From Propionicicella superfundia DSM 22317 (GTDB lineage Bacteria; Actinomycetota; Actinomycetes; Propionibacteriales; Propionibacteriaceae): a stretch of DNA of 64,000 bases. This document shows, in pieces, positions 41,412-63,146 of the stretch. The stretch's first letter is position 1, and the number at the start of each line of letters is the position of its first letter. The notes beneath the pieces were generated by a model that was not told where the DNA came from, searched no databases, and saw only the letters and a program-made list of their open reading frames with translations. The position numbers and the translations under genes are program-made. Location: assembly GCF_000423465.1 (NCBI RefSeq), contig NZ_AUIA01000013.1:62001-126000 (forward strand), written 5' to 3'.

Positions 41412-42752
41412 CTATGTCCACAGACCCCCCGGAGCGAACACCTCCGCCACGAGGTCGTCGAACCAACCCGTCTCCCGCGCGACGTCCAACACGCTGTAGC
41501 GCGCCCGGTAGTACATGGCCCGTGGGAACGTGTCCCGGACGTCAGCGGCCGTCAAACCGATGTCCTCAGGCACGGCAGGGGCACCCGCCGCCCGCAGCAT
41601 CCGCTGCAGGTCCGCCGCCGGCAGCACCTGCGCAGCGAGCCTCGGCCGCAGCTCGTCCCACCGGTCCATCAGCCCCCGCAGCCGGGCGCGGAGCCCGTCG
41701 GCGTCCACATACTTGGCCTTCGTCTCGTTCACGGCGTTGTCCGCGAGGGCGCCGGTGAACCGGCTGCGGATGTCCGCCTCCACATCGTCCCAGGGACGCC
41801 ACCGCGCAGCGGCCGCGTCGACGTCCAGTCCCTTCAGGTCGCGGGCGAGGAAGCGCTCGTAGAACTGACACATCGCCAACGTCCCGATAGCCACCTTGAA
41901 CCCGTGCGACAGCGGCGGGTCCTCCTCGGCGCCCAGATGCGCGAGCTCCCACAGATGGCTGAAGTAGTGCTCGGCGCCCGAGGCCGGCCGCGTCCCCCGG
42001 TACACCTGCATGGCGAGCCCCGACAGGACGAGGCCCGACACCAGCCCCTCGTAGGCGGACGCGTCGCCCGCGGCGAGCGACGCGGGTCGCGACAGCGCCT
42101 CCGAGACCCCGCCCTGAACGAGGTCCCAGGCCAGCGGCTCGATCGGGTCGATGCCCACCGCATCCGACAGGATCCAGTCGGCGCCGCCCGGGATCTTCGC
42201 TGCCAGGTCACCGTATCCCGACGCCACCATCGACGGGGGCGCGGCAGCCGCCACGTCCAGGTCGAACAGGACGACGCGCGGCGCCGGACAGGGCATCGTG
42301 AGCTTCACCCCGCCCCGGTTCATGGGTGCGCCGAACCCCGTGTACCCGTCCATCGACGCAGCCGTGCCGACCACGGCGTACAGCCGGCTCAGCTCCCCCG
42401 ACGCCAGCTTGACCAGGTCGTTGATCGTCCCTGCGCCGACGGCGACGCCCAGCGCGTCCGATTCGCGCAGCCGCTCCCGGATGATCACGCAGTTCTCGTA
42501 CGACGCGTACAGCGCCGGCTGCCCCGGGAAGACGAGAGGCTCTGCCAGGTTCACCCCCGCAGCGGCGAGGCGGTCGAACACGGCGTGTCCGGCGGCCGCC
42601 CACGTCCGCTCGTCGGCGACGACGAGGGCGGTCCGGTCGCGCAGCAGGGCGTCCCGCAGCAGGACGCCACTGCGCTCCAGCACGCCGCGTCCCACCTCGA
42701 CCACCTTGGTGTCGCCGGCCCGCCGCAGCCCCTCGGCCATCACGGCATTCAT
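41412..42752 (-). CDS. Glycerol-1-phosphate-dehydrogenase-like iron-type alcohol dehydrogenase (EgsA/AraM family)
   Basis: 446 residues. NAD(P)-binding words GVAVGAGTINDLVK and GTAASMDGYTGFGAPM; metal-site histidines in SGAEHYFSHLWE and LSHGFKVAIG. The family includes archaeal and bacterial sn-glycerol-1-phosphate dehydrogenases and AraM, which interconvert dihydroxyacetone phosphate and G1P. Here it is the last gene of a glucitol-type PTS operon, overlapping the HPr gene by 4 nt, the place where sorbitol-6-phosphate dehydrogenase normally stands. It may therefore oxidise the phosphorylated polyol brought in by this PTS. Substrate not decidable from sequence. Confidence 0.85.
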   Translation of the reverse strand: MNAVMAEGLRRAGDTKVVEVGRGVLERSGVLLRDALLRDRTALVVADERTWAAAGHAVFDRLAAAGVNLAEPLVFPGQPALYASYENCVIIRERLRESDALGVAVGAGTINDLVKLASGELSRLYAVVGTAASMDGYTGFGAPMNRGGVKLTMPCPAPRVVLFDLDVAAAAPPSMVASGYGDLAAKIPGGADWILSDAVGIDPIEPLAWDLVQGGVSEALSRPASLAAGDASAYEGLVSGLVLSGLAMQVYRGTRPASGAEHYFSHLWELAHLGAEEDPPLSHGFKVAIGTLAMCQFYERFLARDLKGLDVDAAAARWRPWDDVEADIRSRFTGALADNAVNETKAKYVDADGLRARLRGLMDRWDELRPRLAAQVLPAADLQRMLRAAGAPAVPEDIGLTAADVRDTFPRAMYYRARYSVLDVARETGWFDDLVAEVFAPGGLWT

Positions 42753-43075
42753 CGGTTCTCCTTCGTCTCACTGGTTGTGTCGGTCCCCGGTGGGGGGCTT
42801 TCGTCGACCGCGGATTGCGCATGTGGTCGGGTCAGCAGGTCGGCGACCGCGGACAGGGCCTCGTACTCGTCGGCCCCGTCCGCCCACACCGATACGGTTG
42901 CGCCCGGCGGGACACCCAGGGCGAGCACCCCGACAGGACTGGTCGCACTGGCCGTGCGGCCGTCGTGGCGGAGGAAGACGCTGCTGGCGAACTCCCCTGC
43001 CACGGCGACCACGGCTTGCGCGATCAGCGCGTGCAGTCCCGCCGGGTCGCCGAGACGGACGTCCCGGCGGATCAT
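42749..43075 (-). CDS. HPr-like phosphocarrier domain protein of the glucitol-type PTS operon
   Basis: 108 residues; residues 1-85 follow HPr: DPAGLHALIAQAVVAVAGEF with the phosphorylatable His of GLHA, then SPVGVLALGVPPGATVSVWA and AVADLLT. The Arg-Pro after the His of normal HPr (HARP) is replaced by Leu-Ile, which could slow or change phosphotransfer. A polar Ser/Thr/Glu tail follows. Overlaps of 4 nt with the IIA gene before and the dehydrogenase after place it firmly in the operon, so it may be a private phosphocarrier of this transporter. Confidence 0.82.
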   Translation of the reverse strand: MIRRDVRLGDPAGLHALIAQAVVAVAGEFASSVFLRHDGRTASATSPVGVLALGVPPGATVSVWADGADEYEALSAVADLLTRPHAQSAVDESPPPGTDTTSETKENR

Positions 43076-43434
43076 GGCCCCTCGATCGCGATCGTGGTGC
43101 CGACGCCGATCACCGGCGACTCCCCGGCGATGTGGATCGCCCCGGCCAGCTTCGGGGTGGGGGAGCCGTCGACGTTCACCGTCACGTGCCCCAGTGCGTC
43201 CAGGTTCCGCTGAGCCACGTCGCCGACCGCGGTGATCGGGTACTCCGTCCCGTCGATCACGAGCCGCTGGCCCGGGACGATCGGCGCCGACGTCCGCGCC
43301 TGCGCCACGATGTAGCAGAACTCCCGGAGAGCGGCAGGTGCGTCGTCGCCGAAGGTGACGAACAGTCCTTGGGCAGTGAACTCGGTCGCCTGCGGTCCGA
43401 CGGCGGTCACGGTCGTGCGGTAGATCTCGGTCAT
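43072..43434 (-). CDS. srlB: PTS glucitol/sorbitol-type IIA component
   Basis: 120 residues: MTEIYRTTVTAVGPQATEFT, GLFVTFGDDAPAALREFCYI and the phosphorylation-site region NLDALGHVTVNVDGSP, where the His is the likely phospho-acceptor of the gut family IIA. It passes phosphate from HPr to IIB. It begins 29 bp after the IIB/C gene and overlaps the HPr gene. Length equals the E. coli counterpart. Confidence 0.92.
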   Translation of the reverse strand: MTEIYRTTVTAVGPQATEFTAQGLFVTFGDDAPAALREFCYIVAQARTSAPIVPGQRLVIDGTEYPITAVGDVAQRNLDALGHVTVNVDGSPTPKLAGAIHIAGESPVIGVGTTIAIEGP

Positions 43435-43463
43435 GAGCGTTGTCCTCAGTTCGTGTGGCGGTG

Positions 43464-44510
43464 TCAGTAGAGGCCGATGCTGGCGAGCCAGGCCACGGCG
43501 ACACGTGGGACGCCGTTGAGGAAGCGGGAGTACAACACGGACGGCACCCCGACCTCAACGGTCTCGGGCTCCGCCTCCGCCAGCCCGAGGCCGACCGGGA
43601 TGAAGTCGCAGGCGTTCTGCGTGTTGATCGCGAACAGAGCCGGCAGGGCAAGGCTCGGCGGCACGTTGCCCTTGCCGATCTCGACGCCGATCAGGGTGCC
43701 GATGATCTGCCCGATCACCGCTCCGGGGCCGAGCAGCGGCGAGAGGAACGGCAGCGAGCAGATGAATCCGAGCACGAGCAGGCCCCAGCCCGAACCCGCC
43801 AGCGGCGTCAGCATCGAAGAGAACCAGTTGCCGAAGCCGGAGGCGTTGATGATGCCGATCAGCATGGCGACGAACGCCATGAACGGGATGACCGTGTTGA
43901 GCATTGTCTGGACGCCGTCCCGGCCGGCCTGGAAGAAGATGGACACGACGCGTCCCGCGCCGAGACCGATCCGCTCCAGGATCGACTTCTTCTCCTTCGC
44001 GGCGATGGTCTGGGAGATCTTCTTGTCGGTCGACCAGTCGCCCTGAACGGTGAACGCAGGGCCCTTCTCGCCGCCGGGCGTCCCCGCGGCGGAGGCCTCA
44101 GCGCCCGCAGCGGCGGCACCGACCTCGACCGCGTCGTCGGCCGCCCTGACCTGTCCGGGACCGACAGCCGACACGTAGATGCCCTCGTGGATGAACTGGG
44201 CGAGCGGGCCGGTCTTTCCGGTCGGCATCACGTTGACCGTGGGGATGCCCTTCTTCGGGTAGATGCCGCATCGCAGCGTTCCGCCGCAGTCGATGACGGC
44301 CGCGAAGATCTCCTCGTCCGGGACGGACGTCGCGAAGCCGTTCACCGGCTCGGCGCCCGACAGTTCGGCGATCCTGTCGACGACCTCGGGCTTCATGCCG
44401 CCGCCGACGATGTACACGAGCTTGTTGCGCTCAGGGGTCGGGGTCAACGTCAACGGCCCGCCGAACCCTCCGCTCCCGCGCTCGATCACGATGGTCCTGT
44501 ACTCACTCAT
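43464..44510 (-). CDS. srlE: PTS glucitol/sorbitol-type IIB/C component
   Basis: 348 residues. N-terminal IIB domain with [20 protein letters not shown] and the phospho-Cys in [18 protein letters not shown]; a flexible Ala/Glu linker (about 130-170); C-terminal membrane part (about 195-345) with [20 protein letters not shown] and [19 protein letters not shown], as in SrlE. It transports and phosphorylates the polyol together with the IIC protein just upstream (5 nt apart). Confidence 0.93.
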
Positions 44511-44514
44511 CGGT

Positions 44515-45066
44515 TCACACCTCCACCTTCGTCGCCGTGCTGAGCGTCACACCCTGCTGCTTGCTGACCCACCTCGTTGTGAGGTCGGTGACCCACCCTC
44601 CGAGGAAGTTCATGACGAGGCCCACGAGGAGATAGCGGATCGCGAGCGGCCCTGTGCTGAGGCCGAGTTGCTCCACGCCGTGGGCAATGCCGAGCCAGAT
44701 GAACAGCTCGGCCGGGTTGATGTGCGGGAAGACGCCGTTGCTGGTGTGGCAGAACTGCGCGGCGCTGGCGAAGTAGCTGGGCTTGTACCGCTCGGGCATG
44801 AACCGGCCGAGCGAATGCACCATCGGGTTCGCGAGCATGAACGAGCCGAGGAACGGCAGCAGCAGGTACCTCGAGACCGGGTTGTTGCCCGCCTTGGCGG
44901 CGAGCGTGTTGATCCTGTCCTCGCCGATCAGTTGGATCAGCGAGTTCATAGCGATGATCAGCATCAGGACAAGGGGCACGATGCCCGTCATCCAGCTGAG
45001 GAACGTCTCCGCGCCGGCCTTGAACAGTCCGATGAACCATTCGGCGACGCCGACAACGTTATTCAT
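44515..45066 (-). CDS. srlA: PTS glucitol/sorbitol-type IIC component
   Basis: 183 residues, four or so helices. [20 protein letters not shown] and [20 protein letters not shown] are family words. The ATG at 45066 has AAGGAG 5 nt before it; a GTG two codons earlier overlaps that site and is less likely. A 186-bp gap to gutM holds dyad-like GC-rich sequence and could contain a promoter, but I cannot point to one. It forms the channel with the membrane part of SrlE. Confidence 0.92.
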
Positions 45067-45252
45067 GGTCACTCCTTTCGAGCGGTCGTGGGAGCAGAAA
45101 CGAGCAGGGCCGGCCAGGGCAGGTGGTGCAGTGACGCCCTGGTGGGCACGTGGAAGGGGCTCACCCGCGGGTGAGGGCCGGAATCGGTCCGGCGAGTCGC
45201 GGGACGCGCGACGCGATACACGCTGAACCCGGTGACGGGGGTGGGGCGACGG

Positions 45253-45720
45253 TCAGCCCCCGGCGGCCTGCGCCCTGGAGGAGCGTCGGACGACGACGCG
45301 GAGCCGGTCGGCGATCTGCGTCAGCGGGCCGGGAGGTTCGGGAGGCCTGCCGCCGGTGAGAACGATGCGGTAGTTGTCGCGGGCGTTGGCGACGGCCTGC
45401 CGCACGCTCCGGGGAAACCGCCTGTCGGTCTCGGGCGCCACCGAGATGAGGTCGGCGCCGTCGAAGGCGCCCCACCGGCGAAACCGCGCGAAGACCGTCA
45501 CCCCGTTGAGGCGATGCCCCTCGGCGATCCCGCCGGCGTCGTCCAACAGGAACATCACGATCGCGCCCGCGGTGAGCAGGCCCTTCTTCTTGCCGATCGC
45601 GACCTTGCCGCGGCGGTGCAACGCGGTGAAGGTACGCGTGAAGTCCTTCGCCTGCTTCAACGCGAGCACCGTCTGCGTCGCGTAGATGACCGCGAAGCCG
45701 ATGAGAAAGATCCAGAACAT
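45253..45720 (-). CDS. gutM: GutM-family glucitol-operon activator
   Basis: 155 residues. A membrane helix at the start (MFWIFLIGFAVIYATQTVLA), then LKQAKDFTRTFTALHRRGKV, IGKKKGLLTAGAIVMFLLDD and GRRWG-like text, as in GutM. In enteric bacteria GutM activates the glucitol operon; the mechanism is not settled and the hydrophobic N-terminus suggests a membrane link. It starts 9 bp after the PRD regulator. Confidence 0.85.
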   Translation of the reverse strand: MFWIFLIGFAVIYATQTVLALKQAKDFTRTFTALHRRGKVAIGKKKGLLTAGAIVMFLLDDAGGIAEGHRLNGVTVFARFRRWGAFDGADLISVAPETDRRFPRSVRQAVANARDNYRIVLTGGRPPEPPGPLTQIADRLRVVVRRSSRAQAAGG

Positions 45721-45729
45721 GGTGACTCC

Positions 45730-47625
45730 TTAGAGGACGTGGTCCTCGGCAGCGCTCTCCATCAGGTAGAAGAACTGCTCGTAGGTCGAGAGACGGGAGA
45801 CCTTGCTCAGCAGGAGCCGGTTGGACCCGAGCCGGATGAGGTCGTCGTATGCACGGATGAGGATGGTGTCGTCGTAGAGCGCCTTTTCGGGCGCGGCCAT
45901 GAGGAAGATCGCGCGAAGCCCCTCCTCCGCGTCCCCGCGTGGGATCAGGCCGAGCGCGCACACGAGGTGCTCCCCGTGCGGCGCAACGGCGTGCGGGAAC
46001 GCGAGGACCTCGTCGAGGAGCATGGTGGCCCGCTTCTCGCGCTCGGCGACGGCCGAGCGGAATGCCTCGTCCATCAGGCCACGTTCGACCAGATGGTCGA
46101 TGAGGAGCCTCGTCCCGTCGAGGTAGGCGCAGTCTCGCGGAAGCGGTACGAACCGGTCGGCGTCGAGGAGCGTCACCAGAATCGACCCGGCGTGACGCGG
46201 CAGGGCGAGCTGCCTGTACCCGGGGAAGCGCATCGCCGCCAGCCGGCGGGCCAACTCCGAGCTGTCGAACACCTCGGAGAGCTGCAGCACCGGGGCGGGC
46301 ACGTCGACCGTTGTCCCGGGTGTGGCGACGACGAGGTCCGCGTCGTGCACCCGCTCGTCCGTGTCCGTCGAGAACATCTGGAACGTCGTCCCGGGCGGGA
46401 GGACCTTGGCCATCCTCGTCTGGATGAGGCGAGCGACACCCGGCCCTCGTGGCGTCACGATCGCGACCCGGAACGGGGGCTGCGGCCGCGCGGCGTGATC
46501 CTCCAGGTACACCTGGAAATATGTCGCGGTGAGGGCCACCTCGGTGTCGTCCATGGCCAGGCCGGTGCGCTCGGCGATGACGCCCCGGGCGATCGTCGCC
46601 ATGTGGTGCGCCAGCGGGTACTGGGCCCGGATCTGCTCGACCTGGATCGGCTCGGTGACGTGCTGCGAATAGCGCATCCGATTGATCATGAAGGCGAGGT
46701 GGTGACTGAACTCGGCGAGGAGCCCGCCGGCGTCGACCTCGACGTCCATCGTGTCGCGGATCTGGCGGCAGATGTCCTCGACGAGGTCGGGGACGGCCTC
46801 GGGCGACCCCTCCCTGTCCTCGGCGACGGTGGGTGTCCGGCGTCCTGCGGCCGGGATGGCGAGGAACAGCACCTCGGCCGGCGGCAGCGTCTCGGCGATC
46901 AGCGGTTCGAGCCGTGCGGCCACCCGTCGGGCCAGGTCGTGGGCGCGCGTGTTCGCGAGGCTCTGGTACTCGACGGGCAGTGTGACGAGCGGATGCCCGC
47001 CGAGATACCGGTCCAGGATCACGGTCGCCCATCGGTGCACGGTCGCGGCGACGTCCTGCGGCAACCCGCCCTCGGCGACCGCCGATGTCAGTGCCGCGGT
47101 GAGCTCGGGGCCGAGAGGGTAGTCGGCATAGGCCGCGTCCCAGGCGTAGCGGAGCACGGCGAGGCGGATCCCGAGTTCGGGCCCGTCCAACCGGAGACCG
47201 ACGTGAGTGCGTCCCTCGATGCGCACGTCGAGCCCCGACAGTCCCTCGCGGAGCCGGGCCAGGTCCGCGACGACCGTCGTCCGGCCCACGAACATCTCCG
47301 CGACGAGTTCCTCGATGCGCACCGGCCGCTCGCTGCGCATGAGTCGCGCCAGGATGAACGCCGTCCGCCGCTGGGGGTCGCCGAGACCGGCGTCGATCCC
47401 CACGATCCGCTCGCGTGCCGCGCGCAGCCCGTCCGTGTCGACGACGAGGAGCCTGTAGCGTCCGCGGTGCAGCCTGACCGAGCCGGCGGCACCGAGCGCG
47501 ACGTTGAGCTGGGCGACCTCCGCCGCGACGGTCTTCTCGCTCACGCCGAAGCGGTCGGCGAGCGTGGCGGGGGACACGGACAGGGACGTCTCGAGCTGGT
47601 TCAGGATGGCGGCCTGCCGGTTCAT
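45730..47625 (-). CDS. PRD-containing MtlR/BglG-type transcriptional activator of the PTS operon
   Basis: 631 residues. Two N-terminal helix-turn-helix parts (TLADRFGVSEKTVAAEVAQL and RIEELVAEMFVGRTTVVADL), two PRD domains (about 185-400; conserved His in EFSHHLAFMINRM and YPLAHHMATIA), a IIB-like domain (about 405-480) and a IIA-Ntr/mannitol-type domain at the end (VLAFPHAVAPHGEHL with the phospho-His). PTS-controlled phosphorylation of the PRDs should switch it on only when the sugar is in use. It heads the operon to gutM, srlA, srlE, srlB, HPr and the dehydrogenase. Confidence 0.9.
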   Translation of the reverse strand: MNRQAAILNQLETSLSVSPATLADRFGVSEKTVAAEVAQLNVALGAAGSVRLHRGRYRLLVVDTDGLRAARERIVGIDAGLGDPQRRTAFILARLMRSERPVRIEELVAEMFVGRTTVVADLARLREGLSGLDVRIEGRTHVGLRLDGPELGIRLAVLRYAWDAAYADYPLGPELTAALTSAVAEGGLPQDVAATVHRWATVILDRYLGGHPLVTLPVEYQSLANTRAHDLARRVAARLEPLIAETLPPAEVLFLAIPAAGRRTPTVAEDREGSPEAVPDLVEDICRQIRDTMDVEVDAGGLLAEFSHHLAFMINRMRYSQHVTEPIQVEQIRAQYPLAHHMATIARGVIAERTGLAMDDTEVALTATYFQVYLEDHAARPQPPFRVAIVTPRGPGVARLIQTRMAKVLPPGTTFQMFSTDTDERVHDADLVVATPGTTVDVPAPVLQLSEVFDSSELARRLAAMRFPGYRQLALPRHAGSILVTLLDADRFVPLPRDCAYLDGTRLLIDHLVERGLMDEAFRSAVAEREKRATMLLDEVLAFPHAVAPHGEHLVCALGLIPRGDAEEGLRAIFLMAAPEKALYDDTILIRAYDDLIRLGSNRLLLSKVSRLSTYEQFFYLMESAAEDHVL

Positions 47626-61628: not shown

Positions 61629-63146
61629 GTGGCCAAGGTCGTCATCGGTGTCGATGGTGGTACCACCGCAGTGAAGGCCGTCGCCTTCGACCTGTCCGGC
61701 AACATCGTCGCCTCGCACAAGGAAGGCGTCCCCGTCGAGTACGGCAAGGGGGGCGAGGCCGAACAGGACATGACTCTCATCTGGGAGGGCGTCGCCGCCT
61801 GCCTCAAGGGCGTCGCCGATGCGCTCCCCGCCGGGACGCAGGTCGTGTCCATCGGGCTCACGGGCCAGGGCGACGGCTGCTGGCTCGTCGGCACCGACGG
61901 CCGGCCCGTCCGCAAGGCCGCCATCTGGCTGGACGGGCGTGCGCCCGAACGCGTCGCGCAGTGGCTCGAGGACGGCAAGGCCGACGCCGTCCTGGAGGTC
62001 ACCGGGACGACGACCTTCCCCGGCCTCGCGCCGGTGCTGCTCGCCGAGTTCGCCGAGACCGAGCCCGAGTCCCTGGCGAACGCCGGCTGGCTCGCGTACT
62101 GCAAGGACTGGCTGCGCTACAACCTGACCGGCGTCATCGCCACCGACTACACCGAGGCGTCCCGCAACTTCCTGGACGTCCGCACGGTCGGCGGGTACTC
62201 GGCCGAGCTCGCCGAGAAGCTGGGGCTGAGCGACGCGTTCCGCCTCGTGCCCGAGATCCGTCCGGCACACGGCGACGGCGGCACCCTGACCGCCGCCGCG
62301 GCGGCGAAGACCGGGCTTCCCGAGGGGACGCCGGTCGGCATCGGCCAGATCGACGTGGCCGTGACCGGCGCCGGCCTGGGCGCCGTCGAGGACGGTCAGG
62401 GCTGGCTGATCCTGGGCACGACGGGCTTCGTCGGCGCGCTTCTCGGCTCGGTCGCCGAACGGCGCACCGATGTGTCGATGGTGCTCGCGACGGGCCAGGG
62501 CACACAGGTGCTGGAGTTCCTGCCGCCCATGACGGGCACGCCGAACCTCGACTGGATCCGCGACACGCTCGGCCTGTCCGACAAGGAATGGGACGAGATC
62601 GAGAAGCAGGCGCGTACGGTCCCGGCGGGTTCGGGCGGCGTGATCTACCTGCCCTATGCGTCCCCGGGCGGGGAGCGCGCGCCGTTCCTCGACACCAACG
62701 CGTCGGCCTCCTGGCTGGGCATGTCCATCACGACGAGCCCGGCGGAGATCCTGCGCTCGGTGTACGAGGGCGTCGCGTTCAGCCTGGTCGAGTGCGTTCG
62801 GACGCTGGAGCTCACCGGCGACCTCATCGTGTCCGGCGGCGGCTTCCGCTCCGACCTGGTGTGCCAGATCCTCGCCGACGCCACCGGGCAGACCGTGGTC
62901 CGGCAGGACGCTCCCGAGGCCGGCGCCCGCGGGGCAGCGGTCTACGCCCTGGTCACGGCCGGCGAGGCAGCGGATCTGACCTCGGCGGCCGGCATGCTCG
63001 CCTCCGATCTCACCTCGTTCGCACCCGACCCCGAGAACCTGGCGATCTACCAGAAGACCTTCGACGTGTACGTGGCGTCGCGCGAAGCCGTCCGGCCGGT
63101 GTGGCCCGCGATGCGGGCGCTGCGCTCGGCCTCGCAGGGCGAGTGA
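61629..63146 (+). CDS. FGGY-family sugar/polyol kinase
   Basis: 505 residues from GTG 61629 (AAAGGAG upstream). Actin-like ATPase fold: VVIGVDGGTTAVKAVAFDLS (phosphate 1), VSIGLTGQGDGCWLVGTDG, AAIWLDGRAPE, CKDWLRYNLTG, IGQIDVAVTGAGLGAVEDG and LIVSGGGFRSDLVCQILADA (adenosine). The TGQGDG text is closer to erythritol/xylulose-type kinases than to glycerol kinase. It phosphorylates a small sugar or polyol with ATP. The D-2-hydroxyacid dehydrogenase gene follows 14 bp later. Confidence 0.92.
   Translation: MAKVVIGVDGGTTAVKAVAFDLSGNIVASHKEGVPVEYGKGGEAEQDMTLIWEGVAACLKGVADALPAGTQVVSIGLTGQGDGCWLVGTDGRPVRKAAIWLDGRAPERVAQWLEDGKADAVLEVTGTTTFPGLAPVLLAEFAETEPESLANAGWLAYCKDWLRYNLTGVIATDYTEASRNFLDVRTVGGYSAELAEKLGLSDAFRLVPEIRPAHGDGGTLTAAAAAKTGLPEGTPVGIGQIDVAVTGAGLGAVEDGQGWLILGTTGFVGALLGSVAERRTDVSMVLATGQGTQVLEFLPPMTGTPNLDWIRDTLGLSDKEWDEIEKQARTVPAGSGGVIYLPYASPGGERAPFLDTNASASWLGMSITTSPAEILRSVYEGVAFSLVECVRTLELTGDLIVSGGGFRSDLVCQILADATGQTVVRQDAPEAGARGAAVYALVTAGEAADLTSAAGMLASDLTSFAPDPENLAIYQKTFDVYVASREAVRPVWPAMRALRSASQGE

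Follow-up and report, generated by a model that had tools for sequence, protein, structure and literature searches.

The window analysed here, a stretch of 64,000 nt from Propionicicella superfundia DSM 22317, carries on its minus strand, between positions 47625 and 41412, seven genes in the order gutR-gutM-srlA-srlE-srlB-HPr-DH, as judged from open reading frame (ORF) positions and Pfam and NCBIfam profiles. An initial annotation of this DNA had described a seven-gene operon of a glucitol-type phosphotransferase system (PTS) that ends in an EgsA/AraM-like dehydrogenase, and the profiles bear out both statements. We consider it quite probable, from sequence and gene context, that the polyol of this operon is still sorbitol and that the last gene product, termed DH here, has taken the place of the non-homologous short-chain dehydrogenase (SDR) GutF and would convert sorbitol-6-phosphate into fructose-6-phosphate.

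The first gene (45730..47625) encodes a gutR-like regulator of 631 aa, in which Pfam recognises HTH_11 (44.7 bits, cut-off 25) and PRD (38, cut-off 23) domains and a weak EIIA-type-2 domain (PTS_EIIA_2, 24.9, slightly under 27). It is followed by gutM (45253..45720, 155 aa), which scores 90 bits against the Pfam GutM cut-off of 25 and 50.1 bits against NCBIfam PRK10234, under the cut-off of 148. The EIIC and EIIBC components of the PTS, srlA/gutC (44515..45066) and srlE/gutB (43464..44510), match the NCBIfam equivalogs PTSGlctlSorbSrlA (312 bits, cut-off 150) and PTSGlctlSorbSrlE (510.4 bits, cut-off 400); the start of srlA is placed at the ATG at 45066, behind AAAGGAGTGACC, and the listed ORF opens at GTG 45072. 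Taken alone, these equivalog scores are weak evidence for sorbitol, since the SrlA of a more distant group of loci (type B, see below) also passes, with 211.6 bits. The EIIA component, srlB/gutA (43072..43434), is recognised by Pfam PTSIIA_gutA (115.6 against 25) and stays under the NCBIfam EIIA cut-offs (TIGR00849, 114.9 against 189.55; PRK10377, 103.3 against 165). The operon terminates in an HPr of 108 aa (42749..43075; PTS-HPr, 68.5 against 23) and in DH, an AraM-like protein of 446 aa (41412..42752; Fe-ADH_2, 93.9 against 28). The tight overlaps claimed for the whole operon are confined to its last three genes, where two 4-nt ATGA overlaps join srlB to HPr and HPr to DH; the preceding genes, from gutR/gutM to srlE/srlB, are separated by gaps of 9, 186, 4 and 29 nt, and a consensus scan placed no sigma-70-type promoter and no terminator in the 186-nt gap between gutM and srlA. 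The PRD regulator, GutM and the PTS genes thus stand in a gutFRMCBA-type order from which gutF is missing.

The absence of a classical sorbitol-6-phosphate dehydrogenase, which the initial annotation had pointed out for the operon, extends to the whole genome at the thresholds used. No SrlD/GutF short-chain dehydrogenase was found among the seven genes with Pfam and NCBIfam, and the source genome (3.62 Mb, 98% complete) contains no SDR above the cut-off of the SrlD model NF009050 (best 135.7 against 307 bits), no GutF-type SDR at E<=1e-40 and, with E. coli SrlD as the query, only SDRs at <=34% identity. The SrlD model was exceeded in none of the 30 genomes searched and in one of 14 control genomes, with E. 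coli SrlD itself reaching 502 bits. The best SDRs of the source genome (135.7 bits) and of Acidipropionibacterium acidipropionici (122 bits; G026) lie within the range of unrelated SDRs.

The survey of the PTS-dehydrogenase pairing suggested in that annotation was run across 147 Propionibacteriaceae genomes, of which 39 contain EII-GUT, at 45 places. These loci were sorted by SrlA identity into 28 of type A (the window and 27 others at 64-84% to the window SrlA) and 17 of type B (38-45% to the SrlA of the window or of E. coli, the higher-scoring one being taken). As the ORF lists follow a G+C-by-codon-position rule, with labels assigned by strand and overlap and not by frame, the counts rest on tblastn places. 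DH adjoins the PTS in 23 of the 28 type-A loci, window included, which argues that the arrangement is not due to chance, and in none of the 17 type-B loci.

Five type-A genomes lack DH at the locus (G085, G050, G080, G096 and G094), and a GutF-type SDR was sought in all 28 with the query L150:3748-4548 at E<=1e-40. It was found in four of those five (G085, G050, G080 and G096) and in none of the 23 genomes with DH beside the PTS. The gene stands directly upstream of gutR in G085, G050 and G080, and at the edge of another contig in G096. Scored against PRK06171, the sorbitol-6-phosphate dehydrogenase model with a cut-off of 304, the protein of G085 reaches 384.5 bits and that of G050 358.8; identity to the query is 79% for G080 and 69% for G096. 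Outside the family, the outgroup locus L187 shows the order gutF-R-M-C-B-A, in agreement with the L. casei and P. parvulus operons (see below), with GutF at 379.4 bits. In a tree of five concatenated operon proteins, one change parts the loci with GutF from those with DH, and a single replacement event in the ancestor of the DH operons, with GutF as the older state, is probably the history behind these sequences. We do not count a Fisher test of GutF/DH exclusion (C(5,4)/C(28,4)=2.4e-4) as evidence, since the operon tree shows a single change.

By fold and metal-ligand motifs, as seen in Pfam matches, an AlphaFold model and an alignment, DH fits the Fe-ADH/glycerol dehydrogenase-like superfamily. 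The model (mean pLDDT 92.2) has PDB entry 9h4x, the AraM of Bacillus subtilis, as its closest structure (TM 0.75/0.84, 25% identity), and this entry is also the best solved relative by sequence. H262, H266 and H283 are invariant across 61 aligned rows, and D182 is present in 13 of the 14 rows listed for it; we take D182, H262/H266 and H283 to be metal ligands by their roles in the Fe-ADH family. In the tree of these 61 rows, which took in no broken or identical DH copies, all 22 Gut-linked rows fall inside one clade of 37 (support 100/100, branch 0.68), and the residues specific to this clade (37 rows against 21) include G139, P143, A185, G215, T254, Y263 and W321. DH is thus AraM-like and belongs to the Fe-ADH_2 family, whose members depend on a metal and NAD(P), and we propose it as a putative sorbitol-6-phosphate 2-dehydrogenase.

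The source genome encodes five more relatives of DH, at 45-49% and about 30% identity, and each adjoins an FGGY kinase. The DH query picked up these five, and the count does not extend to four Fe-ADH_2 places that are more distant. The neighbours of the five were named by reading translations, except for the ribulokinase (702.7 against 428 bits). The arrangements are DH-AraB-AraD (L039, G000:C11:44000-62000), HAD-FGGY-DH-transketolase (L040), DH-FGGY with a RuBisCO-like protein and a class II aldolase-like gene (L041, G000:C2:486000-504000), DH-FGGY with a DeoC-like gene (L042) and GlpD-like-DH-FGGY (L043). The genome holds 21 FGGY places, and about 2.6% of it lies <=2.2 kb from one, so that finding all five paralogs near such a kinase by chance has a probability of ~1e-8 on an assumption of independence that paralogs lack in part. 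A kinase beside each paralog is as expected of phospho-polyol dehydrogenases. One of the 21 places lies in the window itself (61641-62366, plus strand; G000:C6:123641-124366), away from the operon. The AraB-AraD pair of L039 stands without its usual isomerase, as AraA_N has no match in the source genome, the same profile giving matches in five of 14 controls; a DH that supplies L-ribulose-5-phosphate from a phospho-pentitol would fill this gap.

Similar neighbourhoods are found elsewhere. DH occurs with AraB and AraD in members of the Roseiflexaceae, Ktedonobacteraceae and Herpetosiphonaceae (L280, L281 and L289); two Rubrobacter plasmids combine it with DhaK-type kinase, HAD, RpiB, FGGY and GlpD genes; the DH-FGGY pair is present in Peptidiphaga, Actinobaculum and Ancrocorticia; and, going by annotation, DH-HAD-GlpD accompanied by FGGY and ABC genes is seen in two Rhizobiaceae stretches out of three, the DH of the third lying near an FGGY kinase. 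A genome scan found 495 DH relatives, of which 80 loci were kept and 46 taken (L211-L256), all at >=62% identity; this count leaves out the equally close L265 and L266, and many of its loci come from the same genomes as our G-numbered set. Gut PTS genes accompany DH in 20 of the 46 (in L249 the EIIA only), an FGGY kinase in nine and an AraL-like HAD phosphatase alone in three. The remaining 14 are without any of the partners searched (PTS, FGGY kinase or HAD), three of them being under 6 kb. These 14 loci, together with the closeness of DH to the Ni-dependent sn-glycerol-1-phosphate dehydrogenase (G1PDH) of B. subtilis, would suit a DH that is a true G1PDH of lipid or glycerol-1-phosphate (G1P) metabolism with the PTS as a chance neighbour. 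We regard this as improbable: the reading frame of DH begins inside that of HPr, with 4 nt in common, the gene recurs in 23 of the 28 type-A PTS loci, no lipid gene was recognised in the translations beside the five source-genome paralogs, and DH scores 111.3 bits against the cut-off of 413 of the NCBIfam G1PDH equivalog, a cut-off that B. subtilis AraM itself may or may not pass.

The position of the oxidised carbon also merits consideration. G1PDH oxidises the carbon of G1P that adjoins CH2-O-P, and with this precedent in its family DH might instead turn sorbitol-6-phosphate into L-sorbose-1-phosphate. That product would be a dead end, since the seven operon genes include no aldolase or reductase for it, and the DH-AraB-AraD arrangement of the paralog fits 2-keto products with a remote phosphate; we hold this option to be very improbable indeed. 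Oxidation by DH at C2, giving fructose-6-phosphate, is the reading that we retain.

Fermentation records allow the operon to be compared with phenotype. Among the API results that appear in PMC6920887, A. acidipropionici DSM 4900T, A. virtanenii, A. thoenii and A. microaerophilum are sorbitol-positive and three A. jensenii strains are sorbitol-negative. The operon with DH is carried by A. acidipropionici (G026, strain CGMCC1.2230T), A. virtanenii (G003, strain JS278) and A. thoenii (G046, DSM 20276). In the A. acidipropionici genome we found no GutF-type SDR at E<=1e-40, none of the SrlD-like SDRs described below and no SDR that scores above 122 bits with the SrlD model (cut-off 307). DH is the sole remaining candidate for sorbitol-6-phosphate oxidation in this species among the enzyme families searched. 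Conversely, all 21 Propionibacterium freudenreichii strains covered in PMC4437456 are sorbitol-negative, and strain DSM 20271 (G066) is not among the 39 genomes with EII-GUT.

The initial annotation had proposed a different polyol or a new activity for the family. The putative new activity is well supported by gene context; the different polyol seems less likely than sorbitol. A PTS that carries a pentitol, galactitol or tetritol, with DH oxidising the corresponding phosphate, would accord with the pentose genes such as AraB and AraD beside DH paralogs, with the fermentation of erythritol, adonitol and both arabitols by the Acidipropionibacterium strains tested in PMC6920887, and with the association of Gut-type PTS with other oxidoreductases, as in the type-B loci, 16 of 17 of which have a homoserine-dehydrogenase/DRL-like oxidoreductase of ~433 aa. 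However, the SrlA and SrlE of type A score far above the sorbitol equivalog cut-offs and the gutRMCBA order is kept, and four sister genomes have a GutF-type sorbitol-6-phosphate dehydrogenase in place of DH. The operon is present in three Acidipropionibacterium species that ferment sorbitol, and the phenotype tracks it in the few species compared (PMC4437456, PMC6920887). Moreover, erythritol and adonitol are used by all 21 strains of P. freudenreichii, a species that lacks this PTS, by pathways that PMC4437456 reports being unable to reconstruct. Another polyol is therefore unlikely in our view, though the least so of the alternatives.

Several observations weigh against the proposed role of DH in sorbitol oxidation. 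The mutual exclusion of GutF and DH counts as one event, not many, given the single change on the operon tree. Genome G094 has the PTS without DH or GutF, and an SrlD-like SDR elsewhere. DH is in two pieces in different frames in G075 (L149) and G117 (C. modestum, L153/L266), and in A. timonense (L058/L238) DH is intact and the adjoining PTS decayed; hence, DH and the PTS are not inseparable. An SrlD-like SDR ("SDR2"; 39% identical to E. coli SrlD, 196-228 bits) is present in 13 of the 28 type-A genomes and lies beside the Gut locus in five of them (G046, G003, G076, G041 and G020), all with DH, which may therefore do something else there. As A. thoenii and A. virtanenii belong to these five, only A. 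acidipropionici isolates the contribution of DH, and in that species sorbitol might be metabolised without phosphorylation, by some unrelated pathway. The 14 DH loci without a recognised partner and the non-canonical HPr of the operon belong on the same side.

The role of SDR2 itself is ambiguous. At first impression it was a second sorbitol enzyme; its open frame runs to 682-709 aa in three of the eight genomes that have it away from the Gut locus (G051, G006 and G108), which suggests a fusion, and the translations show a rhamnulokinase-like gene near the SDR2 of L204. In L143, the gene beside SDR2 resembles fructose-6-phosphate aldolase (120.7 bits, cut-off 246).

The operon's own HPr, also claimed initially, is present, with an active site that departs from the canonical one. 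The site, which we take to be His15-Ala16-Arg17-Pro18 in the numbering of E. coli and B. subtilis HPr, reads GLHALIA here, with His15 kept and Arg17 and Pro18 replaced. Across the 21 HPrs of type-A loci (the window and 20 sisters), His15 is kept in all, Arg17 in 11 and Pro18 in none. Arg and Pro are both present in the other three HPrs of the source genome, of which two read GLHARPA and one GLHVRPA; of the two EI-type places in this genome, one lies beside a canonical HPr and one shares an open frame with another. In L147 and L254 the HPr gene is found downstream of DH, not between srlB and DH, and that of L147 reads GLHARPA and is followed by an EI-like gene.

Combining these elements, the PTS would, by homology, import sorbitol as sorbitol-6-phosphate, the C2 of which DH may oxidise with NAD(P)+ to fructose-6-phosphate, thereby doing the job of the unrelated short-chain dehydrogenases GutF and SrlD, the former of which it probably replaced once in the operon ancestor. 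The PRD regulator and GutM are likely to switch the operon on, given their homology to the proteins of Lacticaseibacillus casei and Pediococcus parvulus, and the HPr, at a guess, has probably diverged either to serve this PTS as its own phosphocarrier or to signal to the PRD regulator. The neighbourhoods suggest that the AraM-family branch with DH comprises phospho-polyol dehydrogenases fed by PTS or FGGY kinases.

If DH is indeed a sorbitol-6-phosphate dehydrogenase, one enzyme of a well-known operon has been swapped for a non-homologous one, and the AraM family holds a catabolic branch with a different job. In the parts of PMC5059525 and PMC4244643 available, bacterial AraM is regarded as a G1PDH and serves as a marker for the archaeal/bacterial "lipid divide"; with such a branch the presence of an AraM gene could not be read as G1P-lipid capacity. 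It would also provide testable enzymes for polyol use in propionibacteria, for example in the dairy species A. acidipropionici. A broader claim, which we offer tentatively and with some doubt, is that much of the bacterial G1PDH (AraM) annotation is wrong, at least in Actinomycetota, and designates phospho-alditol 2-dehydrogenases paired with a polyol phosphorylator: the Gut PTS for sorbitol, and AraB-, XylB- and other FGGY-type kinases for pentitols and tetritols. If true, the adonitol and erythritol steps still missing for dairy propionibacteria would be among them, and the place of araM in the arabinose operon of B. subtilis, araABDLMNPQ-abfA in the available text of PMC3207120, would appear in a new light. 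The literature searched, most subscription journals lying outside it, contains no report joining G1PDH-type enzymes to a glucitol or polyol PTS.

Loci of the type-B kind (L160-L176, L177-L196) occur in Propionibacteriaceae and other Actinomycetota and, in those read, have a SorC-like regulator, EIIs and GutM. Their ~433-aa oxidoreductase, not detected in the 27 type-A loci other than that of the window, is also present in 17 of the 20 loci outside Propionibacteriaceae, and translations reveal IspD-like, AcoAB/E2-like or TIM-like genes near several type-B loci. These loci could be devoted to the catabolism of a methylerythritol-type polyol. Elsewhere in the window, ARAGORN calls a tRNA-Asp at 1221-1311, which is unsupported by Rfam at the gathering score.

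Among known systems, the closest in layout is the gutFRMCBA operon of L. casei and P. parvulus, which, as far as described in the available text of PMC5723342, has the same type of PRD activator, GutM and the same EIIC-EIIBC-EIIA order as the window. In contrast to that operon, the window lacks gutF and adds an HPr and an AraM-like dehydrogenase at its 3' end; gutF upstream of gutR, as in these lactic acid bacteria, is seen in the three sister operons, and the fourth genome has the gene at a contig edge. The srlAEBD-gutM-srlR-gutQ operon of E. coli shares GutM and PTS subunits that are 54% (A), 57% (E) and 38% (B) identical to those of the window, but uses the SDR SrlD and the DNA-binding repressor SrlR, neither of which occurs in the window operon. 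B. subtilis AraM (EgsA; 9h4x) has the fold of DH and the motifs around D182, H262/H266 and H283, although its gene is not in a PTS operon and DH falls far under the G1PDH equivalog cut-off. Finally, the available text of PMC4437456 describes in P. freudenreichii an "araBML" island, in which a DH paralog accompanies FGGY kinases and an AraL-like HAD phosphatase, and which, unlike the window operon, has no PTS there and is annotated as accessory L-arabinose genes. In P. freudenreichii DSM 20271 we observed, in a row (L064), genes for RpiB, a membrane protein, HAD, FGGY, the DH paralog, a ribulokinase-like FGGY and transketolase, and this cluster is probably that island.

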